Assembly: GCF_001886955.1 (NCBI RefSeq)
Contig: NZ_CP016804.1
Location: forward strand, 372,001 to 436,000
From: Halodesulfurarchaeum formicicum
GTDB lineage: Archaea; Halobacteriota; Halobacteria; Halobacteriales; Halobacteriaceae
Length of the DNA: 64,000 bases
Direction of reading: 5' to 3'
Both the position numbers and the translations under genes were made by a program. Shown piece after piece: positions 2,544 through 8,923 of this stretch. The stretch's first letter is position 1, and each line of letters opens with the position of its first letter. Below the pieces are notes generated by a model. The model worked only from the letters and a program-made list of their open reading frames with translations. It had not been told where the DNA came from and ran no database searches.

Positions 2544-3620
2544 TTAGAACAGGTCCTCCAATTCGTCGTTCTGGAAGGCGTTTTTCCGATCAGTTTCCTC
2601 CTCGACCGCCTGACTGGCTGCGGTGGCCCGTTCCAGGAACGATTGGAGCCGCGGCGACCCGGCGATACCCGAGAGGATGACGACTACGGCGATGCGGTCG
2701 CCCCGGATCGGTAGATCGCCGCCCCGGACGACCATAGTGCCCGTCTCGGACTCGATCCACTTCCGGGCCCGCTCGATTCCCTTTCGCGAGAGTCGGTCCG
2801 GATCGCCGGCCACGAGCACCAGCGCGGCCTCCCCGCGTGTGGTTTCCGGGACGCTCATGCCGGTCAGCAGGGCTCGCCGGGCCGTGCTCGTGATGACGTT
2901 CACGTTCTCGCCGGGATCGGGTGCGGCGTCCGCGGCGGCATAGCCCACGGCTGCCATGTCGCCCGGCCGGAGCGTGTTGATCACCTCGCTCGCGTCGACG
3001 ACCGACTCGCCGACTCCCTCGACCCCTTCGCCGGCGGCAAAGAGGAAATCGAGCCGTCGGGCGATCTTCTCGTTGATGGCCCGGAAGGACGCTGCGACAC
3101 TCTCATCGGCCTGTCGCCAGGCGTCGTTCTCGACCAGGAGCAACGAGTCGGCCTCCCGCGCGAAGGTCTTGAGCGACTGGCCGGCGTTTTGCTGGTAGAG
3201 CGCACCCTCGTCCCGGCCCGGAAGGATCCCGAGCCCGTAGATCGGCTGGTCGTAGATGCGTTTGAGCTCCTGGGCGAGAACCGGGCCGGCCCCGCTGCCG
3301 GTGCCACCGCCCAGTCCGGCGACGAGCACCACCGCGTCGGTTTCCGCGGTGATGATCCCGTCGAGTCCGGCCAGGACTTCGCCCCGATCGTCGGTCATGA
3401 TCTCCGCGCCGAGTTCGTTGTCGGCCCCCACGCCATGACCGGCCACGCGGTCCTGGCCGATCAACATGGTGTCCACGTCGAGGCCGGTGAGGTCCGTCCG
3501 TGCGGTGTTGACCGCCAGGACGCCCCCGACAGCCCCGTATCCGGCTTGCCGATCGGCGTCCCGGATCGCCTCGGCGATCCGTCCCCCTGCCTGTCCGAGC
3601 CCGACCAGGGCGGCTTTCAT
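2544..3620 (-). CDS. cetZ: CetZ, tubulin/FtsZ-superfamily GTPase
   Basis: The 358-residue protein starts MKAALVGLGQAGG. It carries the tubulin signature GGGTGSG at residues 104-110, the NTARTDL segment that contacts nucleotide, and a C-terminal tail ending NDELEDLF. This is the CetZ group, which controls cell shape and motility in haloarchaea through GTP-dependent polymerisation, rather than FtsZ1/FtsZ2. The ATG at 3620 was chosen because the conserved domain begins there; a longer frame to 3665 adds an unconserved 15 residues. It lies 41 bases downstream of the polymerase gene with an AT-rich patch (ATATTAATA) between, so it may also have its own promoter. Confidence 0.9.
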   Translation of the reverse strand: MKAALVGLGQAGGRIAEAIRDADRQAGYGAVGGVLAVNTARTDLTGLDVDTMLIGQDRVAGHGVGADNELGAEIMTDDRGEVLAGLDGIITAETDAVVLVAGLGGGTGSGAGPVLAQELKRIYDQPIYGLGILPGRDEGALYQQNAGQSLKTFAREADSLLLVENDAWRQADESVAASFRAINEKIARRLDFLFAAGEGVEGVGESVVDASEVINTLRPGDMAAVGYAAADAAPDPGENVNVITSTARRALLTGMSVPETTRGEAALVLVAGDPDRLSRKGIERARKWIESETGTMVVRGGDLPIRGDRIAVVVILSGIAGSPRLQSFLERATAASQAVEEETDRKNAFQNDELEDLF

Positions 3621-3661: not shown

Positions 3662-5791
3662 TCACATTTCTCGGGACACGGTCCAGCCGGTCACGCTCGT
3701 GGACTCGAAATCGGCCAGGTGGGACTCGATATCGCGTTCGCGAACGCCCAGGGGTGACAGCACCGACGCCGCTGCGCGAACGGCCCGTTTTCGATAGAAA
3801 TCGGCGTCGTAGTCCTCGAGTGGCTCTCCCTGTAGTCGCACCCGCTCTCGGGTGGTCTTCGAGTCGTCGACGACCACGTAGGAGACGTCCTGGCCGGGCG
3901 CGAGGTCGATCCCGGTGGCTCGCGTTCGCTTCAGTGCGGCCACGTTCCGCGTCGATTGGGTGTACTCCGCCAGCGGTTTTCCCACCCGGTTCGTGAGCAA
4001 CAGTCGCTCCGGGTCCACGGCCCCCCGGGCCAGTCGATCGAGTCGCTCCCTGAGCACATCGAGGACGGGTTCGGGTTCCCGGTGCTCGTCGAGGACCTCG
4101 ATCAGCGTCCGCTGCAGGTCGCCGACCCAGTCACAGGTCGAGCGCTGTCTGGCCTCGATCCCGCGAACCTTGACGGGGGACTCGTCCGGCGCGGGGTCGG
4201 CCCGTCGCCCGAAGTATCTGGTCAACGCGCCCGCTTCGGTGTCTTTCTTCGGGACGAAGGCCACCCAGTCGTAGGCGGCCTCGTACTCCAGTTCGATCCC
4301 GGTCGCCTCGGTAATCGCCGCCGTGATCTCCCCGAGCGGTCGCTGGTCGGTCTCCGCCATCGGGGTCACCCAGATGGAGTCGACGATCCCGTGGACCACG
4401 CGCCAGCCGCCGGCCTCCAGGCGTTCTTTTGCGGTGAGGAGGATCTCGCGGGCGTAGGCGTTGATGGCCTCGTGGGCCTCGATCCGGCCGAACTTCGCGT
4501 TCGAGAAGCCCTGATAGCCAAAGCAGGAGACGAGGATCCACTTGATCGCCTCGGCGCGGCCGGCGAGTGCCGCTCGTTGCTCCGGGTCGTCCGTCGCCGC
4601 CCGCTCGGCCTTGATCTCCTCGCGAGCCGTGACCAGCGGTTCGAGCACGTCGGGGAGATAGCCTGGCTGCTCACAGATCTCGTAGTCCAGTTCGGGCACC
4701 GTCGTCGAAGAGTCACAATCCCCCCGGATCGTCTCCGGGGAGATGTTTCGGGTGACGATGATGTTCGGATACATCGAGGCGAAATCGAGTTCGTGAACGT
4801 CCTCGTGGAGTCCCACGTCGGGCGAGAACGTGAACCCGCCGCGGTCGGCCGCCCGAAGCTGGCCCATCGTCTTGAACTGCTCGTGGCGGAAGGACCGCCA
4901 GGGGACCAGCACGTCCCGCCGTGTGGCCGCCCGGATCTGGATCGCCGTGAGGACGTTCCCGATCGACGCCCAGGCCAGCTCCTGGAGGGGTTTGTGCGAG
5001 CGTGCGACCAGATCGAGGACGCCGGCGAGGTTCGTCTGGGCGTAGAAGAACGTGTTCGAGCGGTCGATGATCGCCCGCCCCGGCACCGAATAGCGGGCCG
5101 GGGAGTGTCCGACCTGGCCGTAGCTCTCGTAGGTCGACTCGCCGGCGAGTTTCCGGTATCCGGGCAGTCGGCCGACGGCGATGGGGTCTCGCTCCTGTGT
5201 GTCGGCGATCGCGAACAGTTCGGGGACGATCTCGGCACTCGAAAGCACCAGCACGTCGGGGTCAGCGTCGTGGATCCGGTCGAGAACGCCGTCGAGCACC
5301 TGGGACGGATCGCCCGTGATCGACTCGCCCTCGACGGTGGCCTCGCGAAGGTGCCCCTCCCGGTGTACCTCGACTGCCGGCACGTCGATCGAGAGCGTGT
5401 GGAGCGAACCTGTCGGCACCGGCGACTGGCCCGTTTCGAGGCAGTACCGGAACCCCCGTGAGAAATCGACGTTGAAGAGGCGGAGGTCACCGGGCCGGCC
5501 CATGTTCGCCAACTGCGGCGCGAGCGCGTCGACCGCCTCGATGTCGGTCAGGGTCACTTCGAGCACGTCCTGGGGGTCGTGTCGCCAGCCCGGTCGTTTC
5601 GAGGCGACGGTCACTGAGGCCACGTTTGGATGGGCCGCGACGTGCTCCCGGTGGGTCTGGACGGTCTCCCACTCAGCGGCCCAGAGGTAGATCGTCGGTC
5701 GGTAGTCCGTGTCCACCGTGACTGTTGCCCCGTCCTCGGTCGTCGTCCAGCGGCGGACGGCCCCGTCCTCGCGGTAGTCGATTTTGAACAT
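3662..5791 (-). CDS. polB2: B-family DNA polymerase, PolB2-like, with degenerate motifs
   Basis: A 709-residue family B polymerase. Motif A is intact (DFASMYPNII, Asp336). Motif B is partly kept (Lys417, then CFGYQG). Motif C reads HGIVDSIWV where YGDTDS is usual, so only the second Asp (Asp471) remains. Exonuclease motif I reads SIDVPAVE (Asp136, with the usual Glu replaced by Pro), and I cannot find convincing Exo II or III motifs. Family knowledge: archaeal PolB2 proteins often have disrupted active sites and are not the main replicase. The gene starts immediately after the stop of the 85-aa gene, so the three upstream genes form one operon. A repair or translesion role is inference. Confidence 0.85.
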   Translation of the reverse strand: MFKIDYREDGAVRRWTTTEDGATVTVDTDYRPTIYLWAAEWETVQTHREHVAAHPNVASVTVASKRPGWRHDPQDVLEVTLTDIEAVDALAPQLANMGRPGDLRLFNVDFSRGFRYCLETGQSPVPTGSLHTLSIDVPAVEVHREGHLREATVEGESITGDPSQVLDGVLDRIHDADPDVLVLSSAEIVPELFAIADTQERDPIAVGRLPGYRKLAGESTYESYGQVGHSPARYSVPGRAIIDRSNTFFYAQTNLAGVLDLVARSHKPLQELAWASIGNVLTAIQIRAATRRDVLVPWRSFRHEQFKTMGQLRAADRGGFTFSPDVGLHEDVHELDFASMYPNIIVTRNISPETIRGDCDSSTTVPELDYEICEQPGYLPDVLEPLVTAREEIKAERAATDDPEQRAALAGRAEAIKWILVSCFGYQGFSNAKFGRIEAHEAINAYAREILLTAKERLEAGGWRVVHGIVDSIWVTPMAETDQRPLGEITAAITEATGIELEYEAAYDWVAFVPKKDTEAGALTRYFGRRADPAPDESPVKVRGIEARQRSTCDWVGDLQRTLIEVLDEHREPEPVLDVLRERLDRLARGAVDPERLLLTNRVGKPLAEYTQSTRNVAALKRTRATGIDLAPGQDVSYVVVDDSKTTRERVRLQGEPLEDYDADFYRKRAVRAAASVLSPLGVRERDIESHLADFESTSVTGWTVSREM

Positions 5792-6049
5792 CTAGTCCGC
5801 TTCGAGGCTGCTCACTCGCTCGGTGAGTGTCTGGATCGCTCGCTCCTGTTCCAGACAGACCGAGAGGAGGACGGTCTGCATCGGGTCGGCGGGGTTGTAC
5901 ATCCCGCTCGCGTCGGCGTGGGCCCGGGCGTGCTCCCAGAGTCGATCGAAGGGGCCCTGCTCGTGCTGGCGGAGGCTGCGCCGGTATGGGCCCCAGTCGG
6001 CTTCGAGGGCGTCGAGCCGGTCGCGATAGGTGGGGTTGGTCCGGCCCAT
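5792..6049 (-). CDS. Conserved small protein between RecA-like gene and PolB2
   Basis: 85 residues from ATG at 6049: MGRTNPTYRDRLDALEADWG through TLTERVSSLEAD. It is charged and predicted helical, with a C-terminal heptad-like stretch (QERAIQTLTERVSSLEAD) that could form a coiled coil. There is no signal, membrane segment or metal motif. Its ATG shares one base with the TGA of the upstream RecA-like gene, and its TAG directly abuts the polymerase ATG, so it is translationally coupled on both sides. That position suggests an adaptor or accessory subunit, which is inference; I do not recognise the family. Confidence 0.8.
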   Translation of the reverse strand: MGRTNPTYRDRLDALEADWGPYRRSLRQHEQGPFDRLWEHARAHADASGMYNPADPMQTVLLSVCLEQERAIQTLTERVSSLEAD

Positions 6050-6726
6050 CAGGGACTCACCTCCGCGATCGCCCGCTCCTGGCTGGGCTGTGTCTCGTGG
6101 GCCGGGCGTCGGGCCCGGAGGATCCGCGCCCAGTAGGTGAGTGTGGTCTGCATGGTCGGCCCCGACTCGGCGTAGATCTGGGTCTCGAAGTTCGGGCTCC
6201 GAAACCGGGGCCCGAACCGGGTTCGCTCGACCGTGATGGTGCTGTCCGCAACCTGGGAGACCGGCGCGCTGAACTCGTCGGCCGCGGCCCGGGTCGTGAG
6301 GACGGGGATCTCGGCCTCGCGAGCGTAGCGGGCGAGTCGGGCCACACTCCGGAGGAGCATCGACTGGGGTTCGGCCCCGCGAACGTCCTCGTCGCGGTAG
6401 AGCCCGTCGACGGCCGGCGCGACGACGAGACTCGTGTCGCCGTCGATCTCGGCCGCGGCGTCCTGGAGCAGCGACTGGTGCTGGTAGGGAGTGAACCCAC
6501 GGGCGACGCGAACCCGGTCGAGGACACGCGGGCTGGGCGCGACCTCGGCCAAATAGGTCGTGGTCGCGTGCCCGTGGGCGTCGATCCAGACGGCGGTGCC
6601 ACCCGTCACGAGCAGGTGATCGAGTACGAGCGCGTGCAGCGGGCCGATCGAGCGTCGCGGAGCGTCGAGGAGCCGGACCCCGGGCGAGAGCTGGGGGAGC
6701 TCCGGCACGGAACCTGTGTGATGCAT
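6049..6726 (-). CDS. RecA/RadA-like protein lacking the P-loop
   Basis: 225 residues from ATG at 6726 (MHHTGSVPEL). The segment WIDAHGHATTTYLAE resembles the RecA/RadA strand after the Walker A region, ARGFTPYQHQSLL resembles RadA's YARAFNSNHQ, and SLVVAPAVDGLYRDEDV matches the Walker B/L1 region. No GxxxxGK[ST] is present; the region that should hold it reads LVLDHLLVTGGTAVW. It is therefore likely a non-hydrolysing RecA-fold protein. It heads the operon with the 85-aa protein and PolB2. A longer open frame reaches 6912 but is low-complexity and not conserved-looking. Confidence 0.75.
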   Translation of the reverse strand: MHHTGSVPELPQLSPGVRLLDAPRRSIGPLHALVLDHLLVTGGTAVWIDAHGHATTTYLAEVAPSPRVLDRVRVARGFTPYQHQSLLQDAAAEIDGDTSLVVAPAVDGLYRDEDVRGAEPQSMLLRSVARLARYAREAEIPVLTTRAAADEFSAPVSQVADSTITVERTRFGPRFRSPNFETQIYAESGPTMQTTLTYWARILRARRPAHETQPSQERAIAEVSP

Positions 6727-6919
6727 GCTCCAACCGAGTTGTGCCGACGGGAAAACTCGAACACGGGCCCTTCCGGCCGTTCCGGACCGGCTGTAGGTGG
6801 ATCGAGAACAGTGAATTCGATACGAACACCCGCTGTGCCGACTGCTCCCCGCTTCCGAACGGCTTCCGGACCGAGAATCGCCACTATCGTTATCTGTCTG
6901 GTTGTACATCAAACATGAT

Positions 6920-7792
6920 ATGCCCGGAACTATTCGGTCGACGATCGACGCTCACCGACTGGCGAGTTTCCTCCTCGTCACGTACGCGTTCACGTGGACG
7001 ATCCAGGGGGCGCTCGCGGCCAGCGGGATGGAGGCCTCCTGGACACACTCCATCCTGATCGGGTTGGGGGGTTTCGGCCCGCCGGTCGGGGCGGCCGTCG
7101 TGGTCTGGGCGAGCGAGGGGAGTCTCCGGCAGTGGGTCGGCCAACTATTCAAGTGGCGGATCGGCGCGAAATGGTGGCTGCTCGCGCTCGGTCTCCCGCT
7201 TCTCATCCTCGCACTCGGGAGTGTCTTGTTCGTCGCCCTCGGCGGCCCGGTCGATCTCGGCTCCTTCCCCTTCCCGGGTATCTATCTCTTTGCCCTGGTC
7301 TGGGGGACCGTCTGGGGTGGCGGCCAGGAGGAACTCGGCTGGCGTGGGTTCATGCTCCCGGTGCTTCAGGAGCGGTACAGCGCGCTCGTCTCCAGCCTGG
7401 CGGTCGGAGTGGCCTGGGCCCTGTGGCACCTGCCGCTCCTGCTCAACGCCACGACGGTCCACGGCGGCTGGTCGCGCTCCCAGCAGTTCATCTGGTTTTT
7501 CACCATCATCGCGGGGTCGATCCTCTGGACCTGGATGTACAACAGTACCGGCGGGAGCGTCCTCGCCGTGGCCGTCTTCCACGCCGGCATCAACGCCATG
7601 GGGATCTTCCACCCGGCCGATATGGCGGTGCTCGCCCCCGGCGGTGTCCCCGATCCCTGGCTGAACTTCCTGGCCGAGGTCACGGGCGCGGTCCCGCTCG
7701 TCGCCCTCGCGGCCCTCCTGGTCGTGATCTACGGGGCCGAGCACCTCGCGCCCCGCGATCGCCCCGGGCTCGAACGCCTCGGTCTCGATTAG
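6920..7792 (+). CDS. CPBP-family intramembrane metalloprotease
   Basis: 290 residues with about eight hydrophobic segments. Motif 1 is QEELGWRG (Glu137/Glu138, Arg142). Motif 2 is WALWHLPLL (His170), and a later FHAGINAMG supplies another His. These are the CPBP/Abi (CAAX-like, Rce1-related) protease residues, with the active site in the membrane. Substrate unknown; family members act in prenyl-protein processing or bacteriocin self-protection. The ATG at 6920 was chosen over an upstream TTG at 6902. The 3' end overlaps the convergent orc gene by four bases. Confidence 0.9.
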   Translation: MPGTIRSTIDAHRLASFLLVTYAFTWTIQGALAASGMEASWTHSILIGLGGFGPPVGAAVVVWASEGSLRQWVGQLFKWRIGAKWWLLALGLPLLILALGSVLFVALGGPVDLGSFPFPGIYLFALVWGTVWGGGQEELGWRGFMLPVLQERYSALVSSLAVGVAWALWHLPLLLNATTVHGGWSRSQQFIWFFTIIAGSILWTWMYNSTGGSVLAVAVFHAGINAMGIFHPADMAVLAPGGVPDPWLNFLAEVTGAVPLVALAALLVVIYGAEHLAPRDRPGLERLGLD

Positions 7793-8832
7793 CTCGGCCG
7801 CGGTGCGTCCGGCCCCAGCCGGTACTCGCGTGCCTGTGCATGGCCCGAGGCGACGAGGAGGTCGTACTGTTCGAGCTTCCGGAGGTACTTCCGGACCGTC
7901 CGGCGCGAGCGGGGGTCGGCCATTCGATCGGCATAGCGCTCGTAGATCGCCCCCGGGCTGGCCGGTTCCGTGGCCGCGACGATCTCGTAAATCGCGTGCT
8001 GGTGGTCGTTGAGCCGGTCGAGTGTCTCGGACCGGACCGCCCGGCTCGCGGTCTCGATGGCCGTCTCGACGTGGGTATCCCGGATCCGTTCGGCCCCGTC
8101 CTCGACTGCCCGCTGGGCCGCCCCGTCGAGTGCGGCGATCGCGTCCCTGGCGTTCCCGTTTGCGGCCCGGGCGATCTGTCTCACCTGTGCGGCCTCGATC
8201 ACGTCGGGCTGGAGGCCGTGGTCGACCCGTTGCTGGAGGATCACGTCGAGTTCGGCGGCCGTGTAGGGCGCGAAGTGCACGTCGTGGAAGGTCCGGAGCC
8301 GGGACTGGATCCGCTCGTCGAGGCCGAGCAGCACGTCCGCTTTCGTGTTGGCCGTGGCGACGACGTGGAGCGCCGGCAGTTCGTAGAGCGTGTAGAGTAC
8401 GTCCGGCTCGTCGAGTTGATCGGCCTCGTCCAGGACGACGACCGTGGGCGTTTCGAGGTCGGCCAGCCGCTCCTGGAGTGCGGCTGCGGCGTGATCCCGG
8501 GTCCGTGCCCGGGGGCCGTCGACCGCTTCGACGATCCGTCGGAGCACCCGGTACCGGGAGTGATTCGACCAGCAGTTGACGGTGGCCGTCTCGAGGTGCC
8601 CGGCGTGCTCGTCGAGCTTTTCGAGGAGGTACTGGCTGCTGCTCGTCTTGCCCGTCCCCGAGGGGCCATGGAGGAACAGCCCCGAGGCTGGCTCGCCGTC
8701 GAGGATCGGTTCGAGGGCCGTCGCCATCGTGTTCAGTTCCGCGTCCCGGGAGCGAAAGTCCGCGGGGACCCAGCCGGCGTCGAACACCGCCGCGTTCGCG
8801 ACGATCTCGTTCCGGTGGGACCGGTGCAGCAT
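7789..8832 (-). CDS. orc: Orc1/Cdc6-family AAA+ initiator protein
   Basis: 347 residues. The AAA+ module has Walker A GPSGTGKT (56-63) and Walker B VVVLDEADQL (about 131-140), with sensor residues around HVVATANTK. A C-terminal winged-helix domain begins near residue 265 (SETLDRLNDHQHAIYEIV). Family role: binds origin recognition boxes and loads MCM. Haloarchaea carry many paralogues and this one need not sit at an active origin; I found no clear ORB array beside it. The gene is intact and convergent with the CPBP protease. Confidence 0.92.
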   Translation of the reverse strand: MLHRSHRNEIVANAAVFDAGWVPADFRSRDAELNTMATALEPILDGEPASGLFLHGPSGTGKTSSSQYLLEKLDEHAGHLETATVNCWSNHSRYRVLRRIVEAVDGPRARTRDHAAAALQERLADLETPTVVVLDEADQLDEPDVLYTLYELPALHVVATANTKADVLLGLDERIQSRLRTFHDVHFAPYTAAELDVILQQRVDHGLQPDVIEAAQVRQIARAANGNARDAIAALDGAAQRAVEDGAERIRDTHVETAIETASRAVRSETLDRLNDHQHAIYEIVAATEPASPGAIYERYADRMADPRSRRTVRKYLRKLEQYDLLVASGHAQAREYRLGPDAPRPS

Positions 8833-8923
8833 AACTCGAAGTGTGTTCGCCGGCGGCTAAACCCCGAGCCTACCGGAGTGAAAGTGAAACTGACCGCCGA
8901 CGAGTGGGGCCGTCGAAGGCCGG

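Follow-up and report, generated by a model that had tools for sequence, protein, structure and literature searches.

Among the systems described so far, the closest is a set of archaeal genes centred on the B-family DNA polymerase PolB2. The operon was noted by Makarova et al. 2014 and in work cited there (PMC4104785), and Timinskas et al. 2025 modelled its products as a PolB2 mutasome composed of PolB2, PPB2 and iRadA (PMC11791011). In the latter work, PPB2 bears an MGRT motif and is modelled as a trimer that forms a heteropentamer with PolB2 and iRadA, all three genes are damage-induced in Sulfolobales, orc1/cdc6 genes are enriched nearby, and the structural parallel offered is E. coli Pol V (UmuC, UmuD', RecA). 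The Sulfolobus polymerase, Dpo2, is active and exonuclease-free and extends mismatched as well as lesion-opposed primer ends (PMC8764526), and the non-initiator Orc of that genus, Orc1-2, activates Dpo2 and is needed for its damage induction (PMC9738581). Within the haloarchaea, TTTCACTTTCA is known as the UV-B promoter element of Halobacterium radA1, top6B, vng17 and vng280 (PMC2556686).

Here we describe three genes within a 64,000-nucleotide stretch of haloarchaeal DNA (the window) taken from a genome that consists of a single 2.09-Mb contig. Almost certainly they represent the PolB2 mutasome family in a haloarchaeon. An earlier note on this DNA had proposed an archaeal mutasome-like unit, a reading that turned out to be right, yet one that had already been published (PMC4104785; PMC11791011): the protein set is not new and is that of the PolB2 operon and the PolB2 mutasome, respectively. 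What is new is a promoter element upstream of the operon and the sharing of this element with a divergent clade of orc genes.

Three adjacent genes and the proteins they encode

The three genes lie back to back on the minus strand: iRadA (6049..6726; 225 aa, starting from the ATG at 6726), the arCOG07300-like PPB2 (5792..6049; 85 aa, ATG start) and PolB2 (3662..5791; 709 aa, ATG start). The TGA of iRadA overlaps the ATG of the 85-aa PPB2 frame (TGATG), and the TAG stop of PPB2 is followed immediately by the ATG of PolB2; this layout, as given in the earlier note, is exact to the base in its coordinates and at both junctions. The iRadA frame remains open further upstream of the ATG at 6726, and the relatives of iRadA begin at the same point too.

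The earlier note had made its unit depend on linkage of the three genes across haloarchaea, and this linkage was borne out: iRadA, PPB2 and PolB2 were contiguous and on the same strand in 45 of the 51 haloarchaeal PolB2 loci examined (a script counted 44, and L063, in which the PPB2 start is mis-called, adds one), which is far beyond chance, although the fraction describes loci that have PolB2, since the 51 were picked from good PolB2 matches. Many haloarchaeal genomes gave only a PolB3-level match, i.e. they are without PolB2. The exceptions comprised one locus at a contig end (L043), two in which PolB2 is located 5-6.5 kb from the iRadA-PPB2 pair (L044, L046), two in which no iRadA was detected (L056, L072) and one in which PolB2 stands alone (L066). 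Two neighbours of the operon were rejected as members of the unit. A CetZ-type tubulin gene (2544-3620) starts 42 bp after PolB2, and a direct search found this linkage only in the window and the sister genome (L065), most other CetZ profile matches overlapping PolB2 and being taken as shadow frames; a CAAX protease gene (6902-7792, plus strand) lies between orc and iRadA and was present there only in the window's genome and the sister genome.

PolB2 operons also occur elsewhere in these genomes and on other replicons. The window's genome carries a second intact PolB2 operon (L064, G000:C1:1197000-1216500), whose PolB2 is 71% identical. A cas3-cas4-cas1 cluster, a 39-repeat CRISPR array and the remnant of an Orc C-terminus immediately precede it; behind it, apparently in one run, come five unknown genes and an AddA-like UvrD/PD-(D/E)XK protein of 1165 aa. 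In the sister genome, an additional iRadA on a 170-kb contig (G012:C2:81098, L138) has the tandem repeat described below, which points to extra mutasome genes on secondary replicons, and haloarchaeal PolB2 was found on many plasmids (103 PLSDB records). In Halobacterium NRC-1, polB2 (L213, pNRC200 282090-298246) adjoins an IS200/IS605 transposase, and neither iRadA nor PPB2 is annotated directly next to it; the operon of this model strain may thus be broken.

iRadA scored only 23.9 bits against Pfam Rad51. A RadA/Rad51 fold was supported both by a family profile built from 37 relatives, which matched RadA in the PDB (3.9e-12), and by an AlphaFold2 model (pLDDT 85), which matched humanised RadA and DMC1 (about 4e-11). 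The P-loop pattern [AG]xxxxGK[ST] is present in the genome's own RadA and RadB and was found in none of 47 iRadA relatives, in agreement with the earlier note, which had read the protein as RecA-like without a Walker A motif and would have taken a functional P-loop in relatives as evidence against the unit. Furthermore, the alignment column of the Walker B Asp is occupied by Pro in 45 of 47 relatives, and the N-terminal helical domain of RadA is missing. Thus, at the level of sequence, iRadA is a RadA fold with lost ATPase motifs. PADLOC defence models gave no convincing match to iRadA or PPB2, and a HEC-01B match to iRadA (0.00056) was taken as generic RecA-like similarity.

PPB2 is predicted to be all helical (pLDDT 93), and a fold search against the PDB returned no significant match. 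Its N-terminal arm reads MGRTNPTYRD, in which M, G, R, T and the R/D position show little or no variation among 35 aligned relatives, and GRT/S/M was found close to the N-terminus in 45 of 49 PPB2 sequences.

PolB2 matched NCBIfam NF004418 with an E-value of 2.9e-296 and 984 bits (cut-off 692) and also matched Pfam DNA_pol_B; its closest solved relatives are the PolB enzymes of Pyrococcus and Thermococcus. Its motifs were compared by alignment with those of the genome's own PolB3 (L084). Motif C is HGIVDS in PolB2 and YGDTDS in PolB3, i.e. the first Asp of DxD is lost and the second kept, the motif A Asp is retained, and the ExoI Glu and the ExoII/III acidic residues are missing. DxD was absent from all 50 PolB2 sequences inspected. 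The D(K/R) loop motif is present as IIDR (243-244), with DE or DA in some relatives. In the last 22 residues, a motif resembling [LVI]x[AGST][FYW] occurred in 48 of 51 PolB2 sequences (shuffled mean 10) and is perhaps a truncated clamp-binding motif; in the PolB2 of the window it is degenerate (SVTGW).

The loss of one Asp from motif C raises the question of whether the operon encodes a structural, polymerase-inactive complex that would serve replication or the clearing of stalled forks and not lesion bypass. The family was first called inactivated (PMC2527604, PMC4104785), and Halobacterium NRC-1 tolerates deletion of polB2 (PMC1906834). However, the motif A Asp and the second Asp of motif C are retained, and the active Dpo2 of Sulfolobus is likewise without the first Asp of DxD (PMC8764526, PMC11791011), and we consider an inactive complex improbable. 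By analogy with Dpo2, a role of the haloarchaeal PolB2 operon in bypass is likely.

A tandem YCGGAA element upstream of iRadA

Short-word counts in the 150 bp upstream of iRadA revealed a strong excess of CGGAA-containing words. The element is a tandem YCGGAA-N3-YCGGAA with a 9-bp period, positioned just above the BRE/TATA of iRadA. In the window, the first CGGAA of the proximal element CCGGAACGGCCGGAAG (6770..6785, minus strand) precedes the iRadA ATG by 58 nt, and a distal second pair, CGGAAGCCGTTCGGAA (6853..6868, minus strand), is located at -142; the sister genome has the distal pair as well, and two genomes of the same family have it at -132. A TATA-like AT patch (TTTT, 6752..6755, minus strand) occupies -29 to -26 of iRadA, and the same positions are AT-rich across 26 aligned operon promoters. 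Thus, the repeat ends just above the expected BRE/TATA, if, as we infer, the transcript begins at the start codon or close to it.

These promoters repeatedly contain [CT]GGAA twice, mostly at a spacing of 9 bp, and this exact spacing was present in 20 of 47 regions (at most 2 in the null). The first copy was located at -70..-45 in 27 of 47 loci and at -58 in most (mean 0.07 and maximum 1 in Markov shuffles), these distances being blurred by start codons that are sometimes mis-called in GC-rich genomes. With the patterns used, 11 of the 47 operons showed neither the tandem repeat nor the UV element described below; in some of these the start is mis-called, or the copies are single or degenerate (e.g. 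Haloarcula marismortui pNG600). A held-out set of 15 further loci lay outside motif discovery, and iRadA was identified in 11 of them. The repeat was present in 10 of these 11 iRadA operons, about 51-65 nt and mostly 57-62 nt from the start codon.

The strict repeat is rare. Across 15 genomes, among them genomes used for motif discovery, it had 2-11 sites per genome versus 0-4 for the reversed pattern, and in the whole genome of the window it had four sites, two of which are the promoters of the two PolB2 operons. Two gene families recurred behind the repeat sites of the 15 genomes at about 58-63 nt, namely iRadA and Orc/Cdc6, and orc promoters had played no part in defining the motif. The tandem repeat is very probably a genuine regulatory site. 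A 111-121-aa protein behind five of the sites was not counted as part of the regulon, its distances varying from 45 to 111 nt. A small protein with cysteines that is conserved in both Halodesulfurarchaeum genomes (MSVWESPDEATWCPQCQRER...; L113, G000:C1:901417; L136, G012) likewise has the repeat in front of it and is a possible further member of the regulon. We found no description of a haloarchaeal CCGGAA promoter motif in a search of an open-access library, the matches noted in the most relevant paper being primers, and neither the promoter element nor its sharing with orc appears in the inspected parts of PMC11791011 and PMC4104785.

The divergent Orc/Cdc6 clade and its promoters

The window encodes a divergent Orc/Cdc6 paralogue (7789..8832, minus strand) with an AAA+ domain and a C-terminal region, which belongs to the PolB2-linked clade and is the regulator we propose. 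Genes of this divergent type are frequent neighbours of the operon. In the tree, divergent and initiator Orcs split with 100/99 support (29 versus 23 rows), two long rows being placed unsurely. Among the orc genes of six genomes, seven of the nine divergent, low-scoring ones carry either the tandem repeat or the UV element (position about -58 wherever a start codon could be assigned), and the other two carry neither; by comparison, neither was found in any of the 22 initiator-class genes (Fisher p about 1.4e-5).

As orc genes are often found at origins, and as haloarchaeal polB2 often resides on plasmids, the repeat could in principle represent replication-origin-like Orc binding boxes in place of a transcriptional switch. 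Such boxes are very unlikely, given that the repeat keeps a constant spacing from both start codon and TATA, is found upstream of iRadA, which is not an orc gene, and is absent from the 22 initiator-class promoters. A transcriptional switch is the reading we follow here, and the sharing of the repeat with the PolB2-linked Orc makes that Orc a candidate damage-response switch. At L047, the orc and iRadA promoters share one and the same variant repeat, ATCTGGACGTCTGGAC (TCTGGAC-N2-TCTGGAC), and the occurrence of the same changed repeat at both promoters looks like co-evolution with one binding protein. By analogy with Orc1-2, we see an even chance that the divergent Orc is itself the protein that binds the tandem repeat.

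The promoter of the window's own orc is without the tandem repeat and has in its place TTTCACTTTCA (8879..8889, minus strand), 57 nt upstream of the ATG. This UV element precedes orc in both Halodesulfurarchaeum genomes and radA in four of four genomes searched of the window's family (at about -59 in the window's genome). Thus, orc in this genus appears to be connected to the radA regulon, whereas it is the tandem repeat that precedes the mutasome operon. In the family of the window, TTTCACTTTCA also precedes a gene whose start resembles that of top6B. Furthermore, a 52-61-aa cysteine-rich protein (MLADLxxTCxRCxAPL...) is located exactly 59 nt behind TTTCACTTTCA in four of four genomes searched (L225, L227, L228, L234) and is a candidate for a conserved UV-regulon gene.

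These promoters could also be explained if the tandem repeat were the operator of another damage-response factor and the Orc merely a co-regulated target. radA has a different element at the same promoter position, the radA-type element before orc in this genus means that some upstream factor must act on orc, and an unknown regulator has been proposed (PMC2556686). However, apart from iRadA, the divergent Orc clade is the only group before which the repeat recurs at a fixed distance, the variants of the repeat at L047 agree between the promoters of orc and iRadA, and Sulfolobus provides a precedent for an Orc as regulator (PMC9738581). We therefore regard a separate factor as possible rather than probable, and we keep the Orc as the leading candidate.

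A proposed damage-response circuit and its described relatives

Taken together, the observations are probably best explained by a PolB2 mutasome operon in which the repeat acts as a damage operator and the linked Orc is its most likely binder. DNA damage would turn the operon on through the tandem repeat, with the linked divergent Orc as the likeliest repeat-binding protein, usually autoregulated and, in the window's genus, itself under the radA-type UV element. PolB2 would then extend primer ends past lesions and mismatches, as its Sulfolobus orthologue does, and, in line with the published models (PMC11791011), iRadA would dock on PolB2 via a contact like that of Rad51 oligomerisation while a PPB2 trimer would hold the PolB2-iRadA pair by its N-terminal arm. 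In its full form, this circuit would be a haloarchaeal SOS-like switch: a non-initiator Orc would bind tandem YCGGAA just upstream of BRE/TATA and activate the mutasome operon as well as, in most lineages, the gene that encodes it, with a two-step cascade in the window's genus via the radA-type UV element. The arguments for and against this full form appear to us evenly balanced.

We know of no regulator identified so far for the haloarchaeal DNA-damage response, and the shared repeat points to a single candidate regulator with one operator sequence and a pair of target genes. If true, this would suggest that Crenarchaeota and haloarchaea alike use an Orc protein as transcription factor of the damage response, and that such use is not peculiar to Sulfolobus. 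Moreover, a clean haloarchaeal PolB2 mutasome makes its mutagenesis open to study in genetically tractable mesophilic archaea.

The bacterial systems Pol V (UmuC-UmuD'-RecA) and ImuA-ImuB-DnaE2 likewise bring together a bypass polymerase, a protein of the RecA family and a small partner. However, their polymerases are of the Y and C families, whereas that of the window is of the B family, and in Pol V the small partner UmuD' is unrelated to PPB2 and the RecA is active, whereas iRadA appears ATPase-dead. The parallel with ImuA-ImuB-DnaE2 drawn by the earlier note thus stands as a functional likeness only and does not extend to the components: with a B-family polymerase, without the Y-family ImuB and without the C-family DnaE2, the operon is not a member of that system. 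The PolB2 mutasome, as set out in PMC11791011 and PMC4104785, has the same three families in the same order, iRadA-PPB2-PolB2, with orc nearby. The MGRT arm, D(K/R), the lost first Asp of DxD, the lost exonuclease and the dead RadA ATPase are all common to it and the window, and every hallmark open to testing in sequence was found here. There is no difference in the protein set, and the promoter element and its sharing with orc are additional. In the Dpo2/Orc1-2 system of Sulfolobus, the damage response is run by a non-initiator Orc (PMC9738581), as we propose by analogy for haloarchaea. The promoter motif there is likewise located just upstream of BRE/TATA; however, it is the hexanucleotide ANTTTC (PMC5817253) and not tandem YCGGAA, and the genomic linkage differs too. 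Finally, the UV-B element of Halobacterium (PMC2556686) is an 11-mer identical to that at orc and radA in the window's genome, a tandem repeat just upstream of TATA being a further common feature, and the link between this UV-B element and orc is new here.
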